DNA of 64,000 bases from the NCBI RefSeq assembly GCF_003351865.1, contig NZ_CP022242.1:1302001-1366000 (forward strand). The letters are read 5' to 3'. The position numbers were made by a program, and so were the translations under genes. Shown here in pieces: positions 23,586 through 30,043 of this stretch. Source of the stretch: Methanofervidicoccus sp. A16. Its GTDB lineage: Archaea > AGJL01 > Methanococci > Methanococcales > Methanococcaceae. The number at the start of each line of letters is the position of its first letter. The stretch's first letter is position 1. The notes under the pieces were generated by a model. It was not told the origin of the DNA. It was given only the letters and a program-made list of their open reading frames with translations, and ran no database searches.

Positions 23586-24401
23586 TTATCCTAAATGAGG
23601 ATTACTAGCTACAGATATGTACAGCTGTCCCTTAGGTTTGTTATTTACGTAATCCCCTGTAAATAGGTGATAAACCCCCTCTATCTTAGTGCCTTCATCC
23701 TTCTTCTTTATCTTAATAACTGGATTCTCAACTATGCCCTCGTATTTAAAGGATGGCAGTACCTCAGAAACCTTACCATTTACAACTATGGCCCCTTTTA
23801 TCATTTCGGCACCTAACCTACCAGGGACGTCTCCATCTATCCTAATGATCCCTCCCTTTGCATGGATGCCTACAAAGTACCCAACATTTCCCTTTATATG
23901 TATCATACCTCCCACTATATGCTCTCCTATCTCATGGCCGGCGTTTCCCTCTACCACTATAAGACCTCCAGACATTCCCTTATATCCACCTCTATAGGCA
24001 GAACCTATATAATTCCCTGCATTACCCTTTATTATCAACTCTCCCCCTTTCATCCCCTGTCCTGCCCAGTTATCTGCATTTCCATTTACAACTATCCTGC
24101 CCCCTTTCATCTCCGCACCAACGTGCATACCTACATCTCCTTCTATGACGATCTCCCCGGTAGTCATACCCTCTCCAACTCTCTTTAACTTAATGGAGGA
24201 GTTCTTTATTGTCATCTTTGGTATATCGCTCTCTATTACCTTAACGTCGAATATTTCTCCTACCTTTACAGTTGTCCTTCCCTGAGGCACTTCTATATTC
24301 TTAATCTCCTCTACGTCCATATCCTGCATCTTTTCAGGGAGTAGTGCATCTAACTCTACTGGGACTGTAATATCCTCCCTAAGTGTAAGTATAATCTCCA
24401 T
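23586..24401 (-). CDS. fwdC: Formylmethanofuran dehydrogenase subunit C
   Basis: FwdC is the beta-helical structural subunit of the enzyme that reduces CO2 to formylmethanofuran, the first step of methanogenesis. The repeated turns GEIVIEGDVGMHVGAEMKGG, GRIVVNGNADNWAGQGMKGG and later copies form the right-handed beta-helix also found in glutamate synthase. A GTG three codons upstream exists, but its GTGA is the ribosome site for the ATG at 24401, giving 271 residues. It is the last gene of the fwd run; fwdB, the metal-binding catalytic subunit, does not follow. Confidence 0.93.
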   Translation of the reverse strand: MEIILTLREDITVPVELDALLPEKMQDMDVEEIKNIEVPQGRTTVKVGEIFDVKVIESDIPKMTIKNSSIKLKRVGEGMTTGEIVIEGDVGMHVGAEMKGGRIVVNGNADNWAGQGMKGGELIIKGNAGNYIGSAYRGGYKGMSGGLIVVEGNAGHEIGEHIVGGMIHIKGNVGYFVGIHAKGGIIRIDGDVPGRLGAEMIKGAIVVNGKVSEVLPSFKYEGIVENPVIKIKKKDEGTKIEGVYHLFTGDYVNNKPKGQLYISVASNPHLG

Positions 24402-24448
24402 TATTCTCACCTATTATACTTAATTAATATAAATATAAAAATAATTAA

Positions 24449-26152
24449 TTAACTAATTTCGGAGTTGTCTATCTGGATAACCTTCCAGTTGTTTGCCAAA
24501 TACTCTGGAACTTTGTAGTTCTCCATCTGTACTGTGTAGTCCTTCTTAAATACCTCCTCTAAGTCCTTCATCAACTCCTTCTCTAAGGTTTCATCTATTT
24601 TCACATCTACGTATAGGGTATCTCCAAATACCTCCTTAACTATATTTCCATCCTTAACAACTATCTCTCCATTCTTGAAGGTGTATTTAGCGTATCTAAA
24701 TGCCCTCTCTATAACCTTTGGATCCTTCTCCTCAGGTCCTATGTCATAGATGGCAATATCTGCTATGGCTCCAACTCCTAAGTGTCCCCTCTCTAAACTA
24801 AGCCCCAATACCTTTGCCTGATTTGCCCTGGTTATCTGTGCAATCTCGTACATGGTGTATTCCTTATCGTTGTCTCCAACTGAGGATCTAGTTCTCGCCC
24901 ACTTATGGACCTTCTCATTTAACCAGTAGTCCCTGTACTTCTTACTCATCAGCCAGGCTATTATCCTTGAGAACCTTGTAAATGGCCCCCCATTTGGATG
25001 GTCTGTAGCCAGTAATACCTTACTTGGATCTGTGTTGAGGAATATATCTAAACCAATTGCCCACTGTACAGAGTATACAGGTCCCTTTGGAGAGTAGTAG
25101 AATGGTACAACTCCAGATCCTGTCTCCAATTCAACATCACAGTTTGCCCACTTGTTACCTGTTGACATATGGAGGTCGTACTCCATAGGTCCGTCCGCAG
25201 TCATGGTTGTCGTCTCATCTAAGGTGATCTGACCTACATCTACAACTACATGATCTACCTTGTTGACATACTCTGCAATTTCAACCCCCTTACTTACGAA
25301 GTCCTTCCAGGATGTTCCTCCGTAGGAGTGGAATTGGACGTGGGCGTTGTAGTATGTAGTCTCCCTCTCTCCATACTTAGGTTTAGGTTCTATATCCTTA
25401 ACACAGTCCATGGTTTCTATAGTTGTTTTCCAGTTCCCAGGATGTCCTAAGTCGTTTGGATGGACGTGGATGGAGTGAGGTAGCCCTAACATCTCGTTTA
25501 CTATCCCTAACCCCCTTACTATCTCCCTTCCAGTTATACCGAAGTACGGTGTAGGATCGTCGAGACCATGGACGTTCCTTCCCCATCCCCAGGCTTCAGT
25601 TCCACCTGGGTTTACAATCTTTATGGCAAACCCCCTTACAGTCTTTAAAACCCAGGCTACATAGGCTGCACATAGTTCATAGTCCTTCTCCTTAAGATAC
25701 CTCATAACCATCCAGTTGTTACCAAATAGTGTTAACGCCCCTTTGTCTATCTGGGGGGTATCTACAAATTCATCGTGGACGTGCTTTGCCTTCAGTGGTG
25801 GCATAGCTGCCTCTATTGCAGTAGTGTACCCCATCTCACAGTACTCGTACCCTGTTTTATAAGTTGTAGGGATGGAGAATCCAGTACCTGGTTTTAATCC
25901 CCTCTTCAAGTAAAGATCCTTATAACTGTCCTCTGGTCTCATCAACCTTCCAGTGTTTACCTTAGGTCCTGCAATATGGGTATGGGAATCTATACCTCCA
26001 GGCATTACTACACATCCACTGGCGTCTATTACCTTGGCGTCCTCAGAAACAGACTCTACAATTACTCCATCCTTTATACAGATATCCATCTGTTCTCCAT
26101 CAACTTTATTTAGGGGATCGAATACAATCCCGTTTTTTATAATGTATTCCAT
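24449..26152 (-). CDS. fwdA: Formylmethanofuran dehydrogenase subunit A
   Basis: FwdA is the amidohydrolase-fold subunit that condenses formate with methanofuran. The binuclear metal motif HTH is at residues 57-59 (GGIDSHTHIAGP), and the lysine-bearing strand GFAIKIVNPGGTEAWGWG and HVHPNDLGHPGNW follow. The length, 567 residues, is normal. It sits between fwdD and fwdC in one operon, 17 bp after fwdD. Confidence 0.96.
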   Translation of the reverse strand: MEYIIKNGIVFDPLNKVDGEQMDICIKDGVIVESVSEDAKVIDASGCVVMPGGIDSHTHIAGPKVNTGRLMRPEDSYKDLYLKRGLKPGTGFSIPTTYKTGYEYCEMGYTTAIEAAMPPLKAKHVHDEFVDTPQIDKGALTLFGNNWMVMRYLKEKDYELCAAYVAWVLKTVRGFAIKIVNPGGTEAWGWGRNVHGLDDPTPYFGITGREIVRGLGIVNEMLGLPHSIHVHPNDLGHPGNWKTTIETMDCVKDIEPKPKYGERETTYYNAHVQFHSYGGTSWKDFVSKGVEIAEYVNKVDHVVVDVGQITLDETTTMTADGPMEYDLHMSTGNKWANCDVELETGSGVVPFYYSPKGPVYSVQWAIGLDIFLNTDPSKVLLATDHPNGGPFTRFSRIIAWLMSKKYRDYWLNEKVHKWARTRSSVGDNDKEYTMYEIAQITRANQAKVLGLSLERGHLGVGAIADIAIYDIGPEEKDPKVIERAFRYAKYTFKNGEIVVKDGNIVKEVFGDTLYVDVKIDETLEKELMKDLEEVFKKDYTVQMENYKVPEYLANNWKVIQIDNSEIS

Positions 26153-26169: not shown

Positions 26170-26562
26170 TTAATCCCTTTCTATGTACTTTTTTCTCATC
26201 AGTTCGGCCATTGAAAGAACCTTCTCCCCCTCAGCCTTTACTATTTCAACAGGCACATCTTTATAGGAGGGCATTCCAGTACTGTCAGTTTCAGGTGAAA
26301 CTACCCAATTTGCCCAGGGGCCCATAGGTATGAAAACCATACCTTCAGGCATAGGTTCATTTGCCTCCTTTGCATAGACAACAACGTCTCCATACTCTGA
26401 TATTACCTTTACAGTATCTCCATCCTTTATACCTAACTTCTCCATATCCTCTTTATTTATATAGCAAACTGCTGCTGCCTTTCTATACATCTCAAGATTT
26501 TTTCCTGCTTCAATAGCCTCTCCCTGCCAGATAGTCCTGGCCGTATTAAGTATAAACTTCAT
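26170..26562 (-). CDS. fwdD: Formylmethanofuran dehydrogenase subunit D
   Basis: FwdD is the molybdopterin-dinucleotide-binding beta-barrel that completes the catalytic B subunit. The 130-residue protein matches the family (INTARTIWQGEA-like start, GIKDGDTVKVISEYG, GMVFIPMGPWAN). It lies 9 bp after fwdG and 17 bp before fwdA. Since fwdB is elsewhere, its assembly partner must be supplied from another locus. Confidence 0.93.
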   Translation of the reverse strand: MKFILNTARTIWQGEAIEAGKNLEMYRKAAAVCYINKEDMEKLGIKDGDTVKVISEYGDVVVYAKEANEPMPEGMVFIPMGPWANWVVSPETDSTGMPSYKDVPVEIVKAEGEKVLSMAELMRKKYIERD

Positions 26563-26571
26563 CCTATCACC

Positions 26572-26811
26572 TTACTCTACTATGAGTTTTATAGCATCTA
26601 CAGGACATGCTTCAACACATGCCCCACATCCTCTACATAGATCCCCGTTGATGACGGTAACAACTCCATTTATAATCCTCATTACAACTTTACTGTCATC
26701 TTCTGGTCCTTTTCCTCCAAATACGTTGGGATCTCTAGCATTCACAGGACATACTATAACACAGTTTCCACATCCATGACACTTCTCCTGATATACCTCT
26801 AACTTATACAT
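26572..26811 (-). CDS. fwdG: Formylmethanofuran dehydrogenase ferredoxin subunit G
   Basis: A 79-residue dicluster ferredoxin. The two motifs CHGCGNCVIVCP and CRGCGACVEACP each bind a 4Fe-4S cluster. It carries electrons between FwdF and the catalytic part of the enzyme. It sits directly between fwdF and fwdD. Confidence 0.92.
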   Translation of the reverse strand: MYKLEVYQEKCHGCGNCVIVCPVNARDPNVFGGKGPEDDSKVVMRIINGVVTVINGDLCRGCGACVEACPVDAIKLIVE

Positions 26812-26829: not shown

Positions 26830-27915
26830 TTAATTTAACAACTTATCAAAAGCCTTCTTCCATGCAAGGATCTTGGTATCTGTCATGTTTCTTTTAGATC
26901 TCTTAACTTCCAATGCACCTGCAGGACATGCCTTTGTACATGCACCACAGAGGATACATACGTCCTGATTTACAACTAACCTTGGGACCTTCTCTCCCTG
27001 TTCCTTTGGTTTTGGGAATGTCAATGCATTACAGGGACATATGGCAACACATGCACCACAACCACTACACAGTTCCTCCTTTATAATTAACTCTCCTTCA
27101 AATGGCTTCTCCACCTTTATAGCATCTACTGGACATACCCTTTCACACCAACTACAGGAGACACAGGTGTCTTTATCTACAACAACTTTCCCCTTTATCT
27201 CCTTATGTATTTCAGGTGTCTTTATCCTCTTTACAAAGGGACACTTATAACATACTACCTCTATGGCTCCATGAGGACATGCCTTTTCACATACCTTACA
27301 GTAGACACATGCATCAGTATCTACAACGATATCCTTGTAAGGGTTCAAACTTAATGGAGTTTCTTCGTTAGGCACCAATGTTATAGCATCTGCAGGACAG
27401 TAATCTGCACATATTCCACAGAATACACAGAGATCTTTATTGATGTATATCTCCCCTAGGACTAAGGTTTTCCTCTCAGGGACCTCTCTTTTAACATGTA
27501 TGGCAGTTTGAGGACATACCACCTCACACTGCTTACATAGAACACATACATCCTGATCTACAGTAATATCCTTTCTGATCTTTGGGAACTGTGGGAGTTT
27601 CTTTATGGAGGTGCCGTTTATCTCTAAGTCCATTGCGTTAAAGGGACATACAGAGGCACACATACCACAGAGTACACACTTTGAACTATCCACATCCAAC
27701 TTTGGAGCGTCTACAACCCCCTTGAAGATGGCACCTAAGGGACCCATCTCTATGGCTCCAACTGGACAGATATCCTCACAGATACCACAACCAACACAGT
27801 AATCATCGCTCCAATAGAGTACTCTCTTTTCAACAGATCCTTCCCTTATTATTTTAAAATCTTTACCTAATTTCTCCTTTTTTACATCAATAACTTTCTT
27901 CTTTACCAATGCCAT
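26830..27915 (-). CDS. fwdF: Formylmethanofuran dehydrogenase polyferredoxin subunit F
   Basis: A 361-residue polyferredoxin with eight CxxCxxCxxxCP motifs, from CVGCGICEDICP to CILCGACTKACP, so about eight 4Fe-4S clusters. In solved complexes FwdF forms the electron wire that links to heterodisulfide reductase. Its ATG lies one base after the stop of the HTH-ferredoxin gene, whose end GGAGGAA is its ribosome site, so the two are translationally coupled. Confidence 0.94.
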   Translation of the reverse strand: MALVKKKVIDVKKEKLGKDFKIIREGSVEKRVLYWSDDYCVGCGICEDICPVGAIEMGPLGAIFKGVVDAPKLDVDSSKCVLCGMCASVCPFNAMDLEINGTSIKKLPQFPKIRKDITVDQDVCVLCKQCEVVCPQTAIHVKREVPERKTLVLGEIYINKDLCVFCGICADYCPADAITLVPNEETPLSLNPYKDIVVDTDACVYCKVCEKACPHGAIEVVCYKCPFVKRIKTPEIHKEIKGKVVVDKDTCVSCSWCERVCPVDAIKVEKPFEGELIIKEELCSGCGACVAICPCNALTFPKPKEQGEKVPRLVVNQDVCILCGACTKACPAGALEVKRSKRNMTDTKILAWKKAFDKLLN

Positions 27916-27916
27916 T

Positions 27917-28384
27917 TTATTCCTCCATTTTATTGTTATTTAGAAATACCAATTTCAAAGCACCTGTTGGGCATAGAGATACACATCTTCCACATATTTT
28001 ACATCTGTTATTATTTACAACAATCGTATCACTGCTATCCATTTTTATGGCTTTGTAGGGACACTCTAAACACTCTCCACAGAAGATACACTTATCCACC
28101 TCTATCTCTACCTTGGCATTGTACAACACTTTGATAATCTTCGATGTGATCTCCTTATCCTCACTGAGAGCGTTTATGACCCTCACTGCATACTGAGGAG
28201 GCAGTCTTAGGATCTCCTCAGACACCTTTAATACCCTCTTCGATGGATGTCTTCCCTGTAGATAGTGGGAGATCTCAGTTCTATTTGTATTTAAATACTC
28301 TGCTATCTCCTTCTGTAATTTCCCCTCCCTTCTAAGTTTCATACTTACTATAGCTTTGATCCCCGATAGGATATGCTCTGGCAT
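27917..28384 (-). CDS. HTH-ferredoxin protein heading the fwd operon (possible FwdH-type regulator)
   Basis: A 155-residue fusion. Residues about 15-55 form a helix-turn-helix (GKLQKEIAEYLNTNRTEISH), and the C-terminal third carries a CIFCGECLECP motif, with one fewer residue than a classical one, and CKICGRCVSLCP, together two likely Fe-S clusters. It is first in the fwd operon and coupled to fwdF. Known: some methanogen fwd operons begin with a ferredoxin-like gene called fwdH. Inferred: the fused HTH makes it a candidate redox- or iron-responsive autoregulator acting at the palindromes just upstream. A purely structural role in the complex remains possible. Confidence 0.7.
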   Translation of the reverse strand: MPEHILSGIKAIVSMKLRREGKLQKEIAEYLNTNRTEISHYLQGRHPSKRVLKVSEEILRLPPQYAVRVINALSEDKEITSKIIKVLYNAKVEIEVDKCIFCGECLECPYKAIKMDSSDTIVVNNNRCKICGRCVSLCPTGALKLVFLNNNKMEE

Positions 28385-28409
28385 GGTGAATTCACTAACG
28401 TCAATTCAA

Positions 28410-28430
28410 AATGTTAGTGTAACTAACATT
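28410..28430. promoter_or_regulatory. Palindromic operator 1 of the fwd operon
   Basis: AATGTTAGT-GTA-ACTAACATT is a perfect 9-3-9 inverted repeat. It lies 26 bp upstream of the HTH-ferredoxin start and downstream of the TATA box, so a bound protein would block transcription near the start site. An extra ACTAAC half-site lies at 28394-28399. The same half-sites recur at 28490-28504. Confidence 0.65.
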
Positions 28431-28472
28431 CTTTTTAATATTTTATATAATTTTTTTCTATCAGTGGATAGT

Positions 28473-28489
28473 AAATTATATATATCTAA
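28473..28489 (-). promoter_or_regulatory. TATA box of the fwd operon
   Basis: The minus strand reads AGATATATATAATTTAC, a good archaeal TATA element. It lies between the two palindromes and predicts a start near 28450, with a leader of about 65 nt before the ATG at 28384. Confidence 0.5.
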
Positions 28490-28504
28490 GTTAGTAATAC
28501 TAAC
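28490..28504. promoter_or_regulatory. Palindromic operator 2 of the fwd operon
   Basis: GTTAGT-AAT-ACTAAC is a 6-3-6 inverted repeat with the same half-site and spacer length as operator 1. It abuts the upstream edge of the TATA box where the BRE would be, so binding could hinder TFB. Confidence 0.6.
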
Positions 28505-28718
28505 ATCTTAAACATTTATATATTTGGATAAACTGATATAACTGTGAGTTGTTTGTAAATTACCATTTGTTAACCACCTAAAACCATCACGATTATTCAT
28601 TATAGATCTCTAAGTTATTCCCATTCTTTTACTAAAAAGAGCCCAACACTATACTTCCATTCTACTCTTTACTCTTCATATATTTTCTATTTTACTCTTG
28701 TCTGCATTTTCTATAACC

Positions 28719-28892
28719 TTAATATAGTACACTAAACAACGTCGATACTACAACCAATATACTAAATATATATGCCAACACCTTTATCCTGTTATCCATC
28801 CTGTAGGGTCTTTTTAGATCCTTTGAGAATTCATCGATTTCCTTAATTTTTTCATCATCTTTAAAGGTTATAACGTCTAATTTTATATTCAT
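28719..28892 (-). CDS. 57-residue single-span membrane protein, unknown
   Basis: The minus strand has GGTGAT, then ATG at 28892 and a stop at 28719. The 57 residues are a charged, soluble N-terminal 36 (MNIKLDVITFKDDEKIKEID...) followed by one hydrophobic span (VLAYIFSILVVVSTLFSVLY) that ends the protein. This is a tail-anchored layout. The good ribosome site, biased codons and sensible topology support a real gene. I do not recognise the family. It is upstream of and divergent from tyrS. Confidence 0.65.
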   Translation of the reverse strand: MNIKLDVITFKDDEKIKEIDEFSKDLKRPYRMDNRIKVLAYIFSILVVVSTLFSVLY

Positions 28893-29095
28893 AGTATCAC
28901 CCTCTTAATTTTTCTTTTGATAGTAAAACTTTTATCTTCGATTATAAAAGTGAAAAAACTCATATATATGCCTTTTTGCTCATTAAAAATAATGACAAAT
29001 CTTTTTTTGTAATTAAAAATAATGATAAAAATTATAAAATTAAAAAATAATAAAAAGGTGTGATATTAAATATTAAAAATAAATGAGGGAGTTAT

Positions 29096-30043
29096 ATGGT
29101 AGATGTAGAGAATATCATAGAAAAAATAGTAAAAAACACTGTAGAGATAGTAACCATCGAGGAGTTAAAAGAGATTCTAGAGAAAGAAGATAAAAAAGCC
29201 TATATAGGGTTTGAGCCCAGTGGAAGGATACACTTAGGACACTACCTACAGATTAAAAAGATGATAGACCTTCAGGAGGCAGGTTTTGAGATAGTGATCT
29301 TACTGGCAGATCTCCATGCCTATCTTAATCAGAAGGGTAGTATGGAGGAGATACACCAGTTGGCAGAGGAAAACAAAAAAGTATTCAAGGCTATGGGGTT
29401 ATCTGCAAAGTACATCTACGGCAGTGAGTTCCAGTTAGAAAAAGATTACGTATTAGACGTTCATAGGATAGCACTGAAGACCACCTTAAAGAGGGCAAGA
29501 AGGAGTATGGAGTTGATAGCAAGGGAGGAGGAGAATCCTAAGGTTGCAGAGGTAATATATCCATTGATGCAGGTAAACGATATAAAACACTTAGAGGTAG
29601 ATGTGGCAGTCGGTGGTATGGAACAGAGGAAGATACACATGTTGGCAAGGGAGATACTGCCATCTATAGGTTGGAAATCTCCAATATGTATCCACAACCC
29701 TGTACTTACAGGCTTAGATGGAAAGGGGAAGATGTCCTCCTCTAAGGATAACTTCATAGGGGTAGATGACGATCCAGATATTATCAGATCCAAGATAAGG
29801 AAGGCTTACTGTCCTATGGGGGTTGTAGAGGGGAATCCTGTACTGGAGATGGCGAGGTACTTCTTGGAATATCCACTAACTGTAGAGAGGCCTGAGAAAT
29901 TTGGAGGGGATATTTACGTTGAAAACTACGAGACGTTGGAAAGGTTATATAGAGAGAAAGAGATCCACCCGATGGATCTAAAGAACACTGTTGCAGAGGA
30001 GATAATTAGGATACTTGAACCTATTAGGAAAAGAATAAGGTAG
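29096..30043 (+). CDS. tyrS: Tyrosyl-tRNA synthetase
   Basis: An archaeal-type class I TyrRS of 315 residues. The HIGH-equivalent motif GRIHLGHYL is at about 43-51 and the KMSKS-equivalent KMSSSKD is near 212. It attaches tyrosine to tRNA(Tyr). GAGGGA lies eight bases before the ATG. A TATA-like CATATATATG near 28961 implies a leader of about 100 nt. Confidence 0.94.

Follow-up and report, generated by a model that had tools for sequence, protein, structure and literature searches.

A conserved pair of palindromes at the fwd promoter of methanogens suggests autoregulation by the HTH and ferredoxin-type protein FwdE

The fwd promoter and its first gene

The window considered here, a stretch of 64,000 nucleotides from Methanofervidicoccus sp. 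A16, harbors the operon for the tungsten formylmethanofuran dehydrogenase, in which fwdE is followed by fwdF, fwdG, fwdD, fwdA and fwdC (Table 1). In Methanothermobacter, the counterpart of FwdE is FwdH, encoded in the operon fwdHFGDACB (PMC3087415). For comparison, we used 66 FwdE proteins and promoters, 36 from Methanococcales and 30 from a second phylum that we infer, on the basis of gene order and genome size, to be the Methanobacteriales.

Table 1. Genes and promoter features of the fwd locus (positions in the window)
Feature	Position	Strand	Description and basis
OP1, upstream operator (putative)	28490..28504		GTTAG-TATTA-CTAAC on coding (-) strand; exact GTTAGTNNNACTAAC site
TATA1, ATATATATAA	28476..28485	-	TATA box with deep conservation; start predicted at about 28454-28458
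TTTCTATTT..TAGAA-type stretch (here TTTACTATCCACTGATAGAAA, CTATC-CACT-GATAG)	28455..28475	-	ungapped consensus common to both phyla
TATA2, TTATATAAAA	28441..28450	-	possible second core promoter, from alignment; purine-rich stretch upstream
OP2, downstream operator (putative)	28413..28427		GTTAG-TTACA-CTAAC on coding (-) strand; exact GTTAGTNNNACTAAC site
Extra half-site ACGTTAGTGA	28392..28401		near start codon; weakly conserved
fwdE (fwdH in Methanothermobacter nomenclature)	27917..28384	-	155 aa; Xre/Cro-like HTH (residues ~17-64) and two [4Fe-4S] motifs
fwdF	26830..27915	-	polyferredoxin subunit; NCBIfam NF042909, 471.7 bits (cut-off 375)
fwdG	26572..26811	-	79 aa, two ferredoxin motifs; operon position and tblastn to other fwd operons
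fwdD	26170..26562	-	position and tblastn, 37-63% identity in fwd operons elsewhere
fwdA	24449..26152	-	NCBIfam NF042911, 1030 bits
fwdC	23586..24410	-	NCBIfam NF042910, 406.5 bits

The promoter carries two 15-bp inverted repeats with 5-bp half-sites, OP1 and OP2, found on the plus strand as GTTAGTAATACTAAC (28490-28504) and within AATGTTAGTGTAACTAACATT (28410-28430), respectively. Their centres are 77 bp apart, and OP2 ends 28 bp before the ATG. An earlier reading of this DNA, made from the sequence only, had described palindromes on both sides of the fwd TATA box, with GTTAGT/ACTAAC as their common half-site and a centre of 3 bp. Both palindromes are in place, with a TATA box between them, and inspection of the sequence bears out the shared half-site and centre. 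The single good TATA box of that reading is present as well, but there are two candidates for it, TATA1 and TATA2. TATA2 is clear only in Methanococcales; the second phylum shows no conserved TATA box at this place. The start that had been proposed near 28450 agrees with what TATA1 leads one to expect, which remains a prediction, and OP2 would then lie about 36 bp after the start. TATA2 would place the start at about 28420, within OP2.

Across both phyla, the stretch that separates TATA1 from TATA2 reaches roughly the conservation of the TATA box itself. It is probably the initiation region, but this role is inferred, and the stretch may be either an initiation element or a third site. With 4 bp between its core and TATA1, OP1 abuts or overlaps the BRE. 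The additional half-site that had been noted near the start codon is real, but while it is present in the window and in three further genomes (G001, G004, G008), it is absent from two others (G005, G010). Since only some close relatives within the genus retain it, we regard it as weak evidence.

Two small features upstream of the promoter are mentioned for completeness. A 57-aa open reading frame with a hydrophobic C-terminal stretch (MNIKLDVITF...VSTLFSVLY; 28719-28892, minus strand) lies upstream of fwdE in the same direction, and two 27-bp direct repeats, 85% identical and with 30-bp spacing (28973-29029), are located upstream of a tyrosyl-tRNA synthetase-like gene (29096-30043).

With respect to the first gene itself, the earlier description of an HTH protein with Fe-S motifs is correct in gene start and domains alike. 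The Pfam model HTH_3 (PF01381) scores the window FwdE at 22.7 bits (E=1.1e-4), i.e., 0.3 bits short of the cut-off of 23, and it matches 15 of 15 family members at E<=0.01 (best E=1.3e-8); the Fer4 model matches with E=9.5e-10. No NCBIfam model naming FwdE was found. The cysteines of the two [4Fe-4S] motifs (C99, C102, C105, C108 and C128, C131, C134, C138) are invariant in all 66 orthologues, which marks them as conserved cluster ligands, as Fe-S regulators require. The first motif is CX2CX2CX2C in 35 of the 36 Methanococcales proteins and CX2CX2CX3C in all 30 of the second phylum. An AlphaFold model based on five sequences (pLDDT 42, pTM 0.27) was too poor for use.

Conservation of the paired sites in two phyla

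FwdE orthologues occur in 36/36 genomes of the window's phylum, all of them Methanococcales-like, and in the second phylum 115 of 152 genomes, from 18 of 20 genera, gave matches; the 115 include three weak matches in genus g42 which are not orthologues. Except for one locus at a contig end, fwdF directly follows fwdE at all 66 loci compared, and orthology together with this position fulfills the criterion for the FwdE/FwdH family. A scan of named genomes returned only Methanothermococcus contigs, as the nearest, and two bacterial matches restricted to the Fe-S part. FwdE was not found in the phylum or class of two other genomes bearing fwdA (5 and 23 genomes). In three genomes of genus g3 (G021, G017 and G020; loci L019, L020 and L024), an AT-rich gap of 400-550 bp separates fwdE from fwdF; a further promoter serving the enzyme genes could reside there, and no strong operator was found in these gaps.

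The regulatory proposal of the earlier reading, which a lack of conservation upstream of orthologues would have refuted, survived the comparison, as paired sites are found in all Methanococcales genera and in the second phylum. OP1 is recognisable in 64-65 of the 66 promoters (weakest in G034, none in G025), and OP2 clearly in 52, or in 56 if weak sites are included. These counts alone are not independent evidence, because the matrix used to place the sites was trained on the same promoters. The centres of OP1 and OP2 are 77 or 78 bp apart in 48 of 56 pairs, the remaining eight distances being 79, 80, 64 (four cases), 67 and 68 bp, while anywhere between 8 and 50 bp separate OP2 from the ATG. 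This near-fixed spacing next to a variable distance to the gene argues for a constraint on the geometry around the core promoter. It may reflect helical phasing or a contact between dimers; the 67- and 68-bp cases are one turn shorter, but the four cases of 64 bp do not fit this.

A TATA-like box starts 1-5 bp after the OP1 19-mer in 65/65 promoters with OP1 (3 bp in 49 of them), followed by the common TTTCTATTT..TAGAA stretch. With OP1 as the anchor, conservation rises sharply from 0.07 bits per column over the preceding 40 bp to 0.93 in OP1, and is 0.75 across TATA1 and the initiation region. When Methanococcales sites were used to train a matrix and the 77/78-bp spacing was added, 28 of the 30 second-phylum promoters scored above the 99th percentile of dinucleotide shuffles, though this test is not fully independent either, because the spacing was learned from both sets. 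The reverse matrix, from the second phylum to Methanococcales, succeeded in only 12 of 36 promoters, because the half-sites differ (GTGTG as compared to GTTAG/GTGAG), and we do not count it as support. Within the arms of OP1, positions 5/15 are paired in 55 of 60 cases (shuffle maximum 47) and positions 6/14 in 43 of 60 (shuffle maximum 37). This covariation is only suggestive, since the protein tree offers no more than 2-3 independent well-supported contrasts, with which significance cannot be reached.

Some genomes depart from this arrangement or show it in weaker form. In family f2, seven genomes combine a strong OP1 with no recognisable OP2. In G061, the sole genome of its family in the set, both sites are degenerate and 79 bp apart. 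G025 keeps fwdE-fwdF (L032) with neither operator nor the usual promoter upstream, and its 5′ neighbourhood differs.

Short palindromes are common in AT-rich genomes, and one might thus suspect that those at fwd arose by chance. However, the exact GTTAGTNNNACTAAC sequence occurs only twice in the whole genome of 1,504,113 bp, both times at the fwd promoter, and conservation across two phyla at near-fixed spacing already refutes this explanation, which we regard as practically discarded. Another possibility is that OP2 works in the mRNA, where its palindrome would form a hairpin beside the ribosome-binding site and control translation. OP2 does lie in the probable leader, and in most genomes 8-11 nt separate the end of its 19-mer from the ATG. 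Yet its stems are merely about 5 bp long, its distance is constant to OP1 and the TATA box rather than to the ATG, and OP1, with the same sequence, is upstream of the TATA box and therefore would not be transcribed. We thus deem an mRNA element very improbable.

Connecting FwdE to the sites

Exact sites occur in the Methanofervidicoccus genome only before fwdE. A search for a wider regulon in this genome gave only five sites with one mismatch to GTTAGTNNNACTAAC, all of which lie within open reading frames. In six genomes of the second phylum, TGTGN7CACAC has a few matches outside fwd; of three such places viewed, two are coding, and the third is intergenic with 7-bp instead of 5-bp spacing and hence a different site.

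Where FwdE has been lost, the paired sites are missing too. Genus g42 (twenty genomes) keeps fwdA and has no full-length FwdE orthologue; in the six genomes inspected, the operon starts with fwdG, both FwdE and FwdF being missing. Paired operators were absent from all six, one of which (G173) has a single isolated site. Together with the conservation of paired sites before fwdE orthologues, this makes autoregulation of fwd, as the sequence-only reading had proposed it, well supported by comparative evidence, though binding of the protein to DNA remains inferred. Because the arrangement has been kept in two distant methanogen groups, FwdE is probably the operon's own regulator.

It must be considered, however, whether a different transcription factor binds the operators, with FwdE being a subunit for electron transfer or assembly and its HTH-like fold either a relic or put to another use. 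FwdE/FwdH has long been counted among the subunits of the enzyme, as part of FwdA-DFGH (PMC3087415), there are no direct binding data for it, and G025 retains FwdE in the absence of operators. On the other hand, residues R35, S39, H40, Y41 and G44 of the recognition helix are invariant in 66/66 proteins, which is not expected of a dead HTH. Furthermore, residue 37 of this helix changes together with the half-site between the phyla: it is T in 30/30 proteins of the second phylum, where the half-site is GTGTG, and I, E, M, A or V in 36/36 Methanococcales proteins, where it is GTKAG. This match is suggestive only, since it represents a single split between clades. The joint loss of FwdE and paired operators in g42 likewise speaks against another factor, as do the solved structures. 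PDB searches retrieved FwdF and FwdG chains of solved Fwd complexes (5t5i, 9sw6 and 9sfi, with 520 bits for FwdF of 9sfi against ours), but none that corresponds to the HTH part of FwdE. By these complexes FwdE is not a stable Fwd subunit, though it is not excluded that a loose association was lost in purification. Taken together, we consider binding by another factor unlikely, but not to the point of dismissing it.

Two divergent FwdE-like paralogues with an HTH and 2[4Fe-4S], of about 35% identity, were identified (L037, G009:C1:499405-499875; L038, G012:C1:1369964-1370431). They adjoin genes resembling subunits of 2-oxoacid:ferredoxin oxidoreductase (KorB/KorC-like), and no such paired sites were seen upstream of them. 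They suggest that another such regulator with a ferredoxin domain controls a ferredoxin-dependent carbon enzyme, which would mean that there is a small family of such regulators of ferredoxin-dependent CO2 metabolism.

Possible mechanism and relation to known regulators

We consider it likely that FwdE is a dedicated autoregulator of fwd which binds OP1 and OP2, exerts net negative feedback and has an affinity set by its Fe-S clusters; binding, sign and signal are all inferred. A FwdE dimer would bind the 15-bp inverted repeat GTKWG-N5-CWMAC through its Xre/Cro-like HTH. One dimer would occupy OP1, adjoining the TATA box on its upstream side, where the BRE is contacted by TFB, and a second one OP2 in the start-proximal leader, which would place the two about 77.5 bp from each other on either side of the core promoter. 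Occupancy of OP1 would hinder TFB/TBP and that of OP2 promoter escape, with negative feedback as the most likely net effect.

While negative autoregulation is the simplest reading and FwdE is probably a repressor, a serious alternative that is compatible with the main proposal is that FwdE activates from OP1 by recruiting TBP/TFB and acts as a brake at OP2 when its concentration is high, which would result in homeostasis. Archaeal activators such as Ptr2 or TFB-RF1 usually sit just upstream of BRE/TATA, and in most promoters 4-5 bp separate the OP1 core from the TATA box downstream of it. OP1 is also more conserved than OP2, being the only site retained in the seven f2 genomes. However, occupancy at the edge of the BRE could equally block TFB, and there are no expression data behind activation. 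We hold this alternative to be quite possible, but less probable than repression at both sites.

The two ferredoxin-type [4Fe-4S] clusters would set the DNA affinity of FwdE and probably report redox, ferredoxin or iron status, such that fwd output would track either how reduced the low-potential ferredoxin pool is or how much iron and sulfur is supplied; oxidants are a further candidate signal. Redox or iron sensing is a hypothesis that rests only on the eight invariant cysteines. More tentatively still, FwdE could sense electron supply by exchanging electrons with the Fwd/Hdr ferredoxin chain (FwdF/FwdG), leaving or entering both operators according to its redox state. This would constitute a direct electron-flux feedback on the CO2-reducing step, inherited in Methanococcales and Methanobacteriales.

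Control of this first and most reducing step from CO2 to methane is poorly known in methanogens, and fwd is usually called constitutive. In M. marburgensis (Methanothermobacter) it was described as constitutively formed (PMC3087415), and Fwd proteins of M. maripaludis increased by only log2 0.20-0.28 under H2 limitation (PMC2723118); the dynamic range of the regulation may therefore be small. Our literature search on FwdE/FwdH regulation found no regulatory role or DNA site. If the proposal is true, a protein that has been filed for decades as an enzyme subunit is a control point that makes transcription of the entry-enzyme genes depend on the redox state of ferredoxin or on iron. With the operators and the protein defined, and with genetic systems existing for M. 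maripaludis and M. jannaschii, this is testable.

Several known systems bear comparison. FwdE/FwdH as annotated is the same gene in the same first position of the operon, but it is known only as an enzyme-associated ferredoxin, whereas we read it as a regulator. Tfx of Methanothermobacter, an HTH protein, binds near the promoter of fmdECB, which encodes the molybdenum isoenzyme (PMC3087415). Like FwdE, it is encoded beside a formylmethanofuran dehydrogenase operon, but it is tied to fmd and not to fwd. Membership of FwdE in the Tfx family was rejected, as its N-domain profile meets Tfx (1nr3) only at profile positions 17-40 (E=0.36), a match at the level of the HTH helices. We know of no Fe-S domain in Tfx.

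The activators Ptr2 and TFB-RF1, next to the BRE, share the position of OP1 relative to the TATA box; to our knowledge they have neither an Fe-S sensor domain of the FwdE kind nor a second site downstream of the start. With dimeric repressors of the Xre/Cro/lambda-repressor type, e.g., the controller C proteins of restriction-modification systems, the FwdE system shares the HTH_3 domain, short inverted-repeat operators and autoregulation by paired operators around the promoter, the latter being inferred for FwdE. FwdE differs from them in its additional C-terminal ferredoxin-type 2[4Fe-4S] domain and in the archaeal TATA/BRE promoter. IscR, NsrR, FNR, SoxR and WhiB combine a DNA-binding domain with an Fe-S cluster sensor, which consists of one cluster in a non-ferredoxin fold, whereas FwdE has a complete two-cluster domain of the ferredoxin type fused to its HTH. 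In our reading, FwdE is thus a putative Fe-S transcription regulator that acts on the entry operon of methanogenesis, its sensing function being hypothetical.
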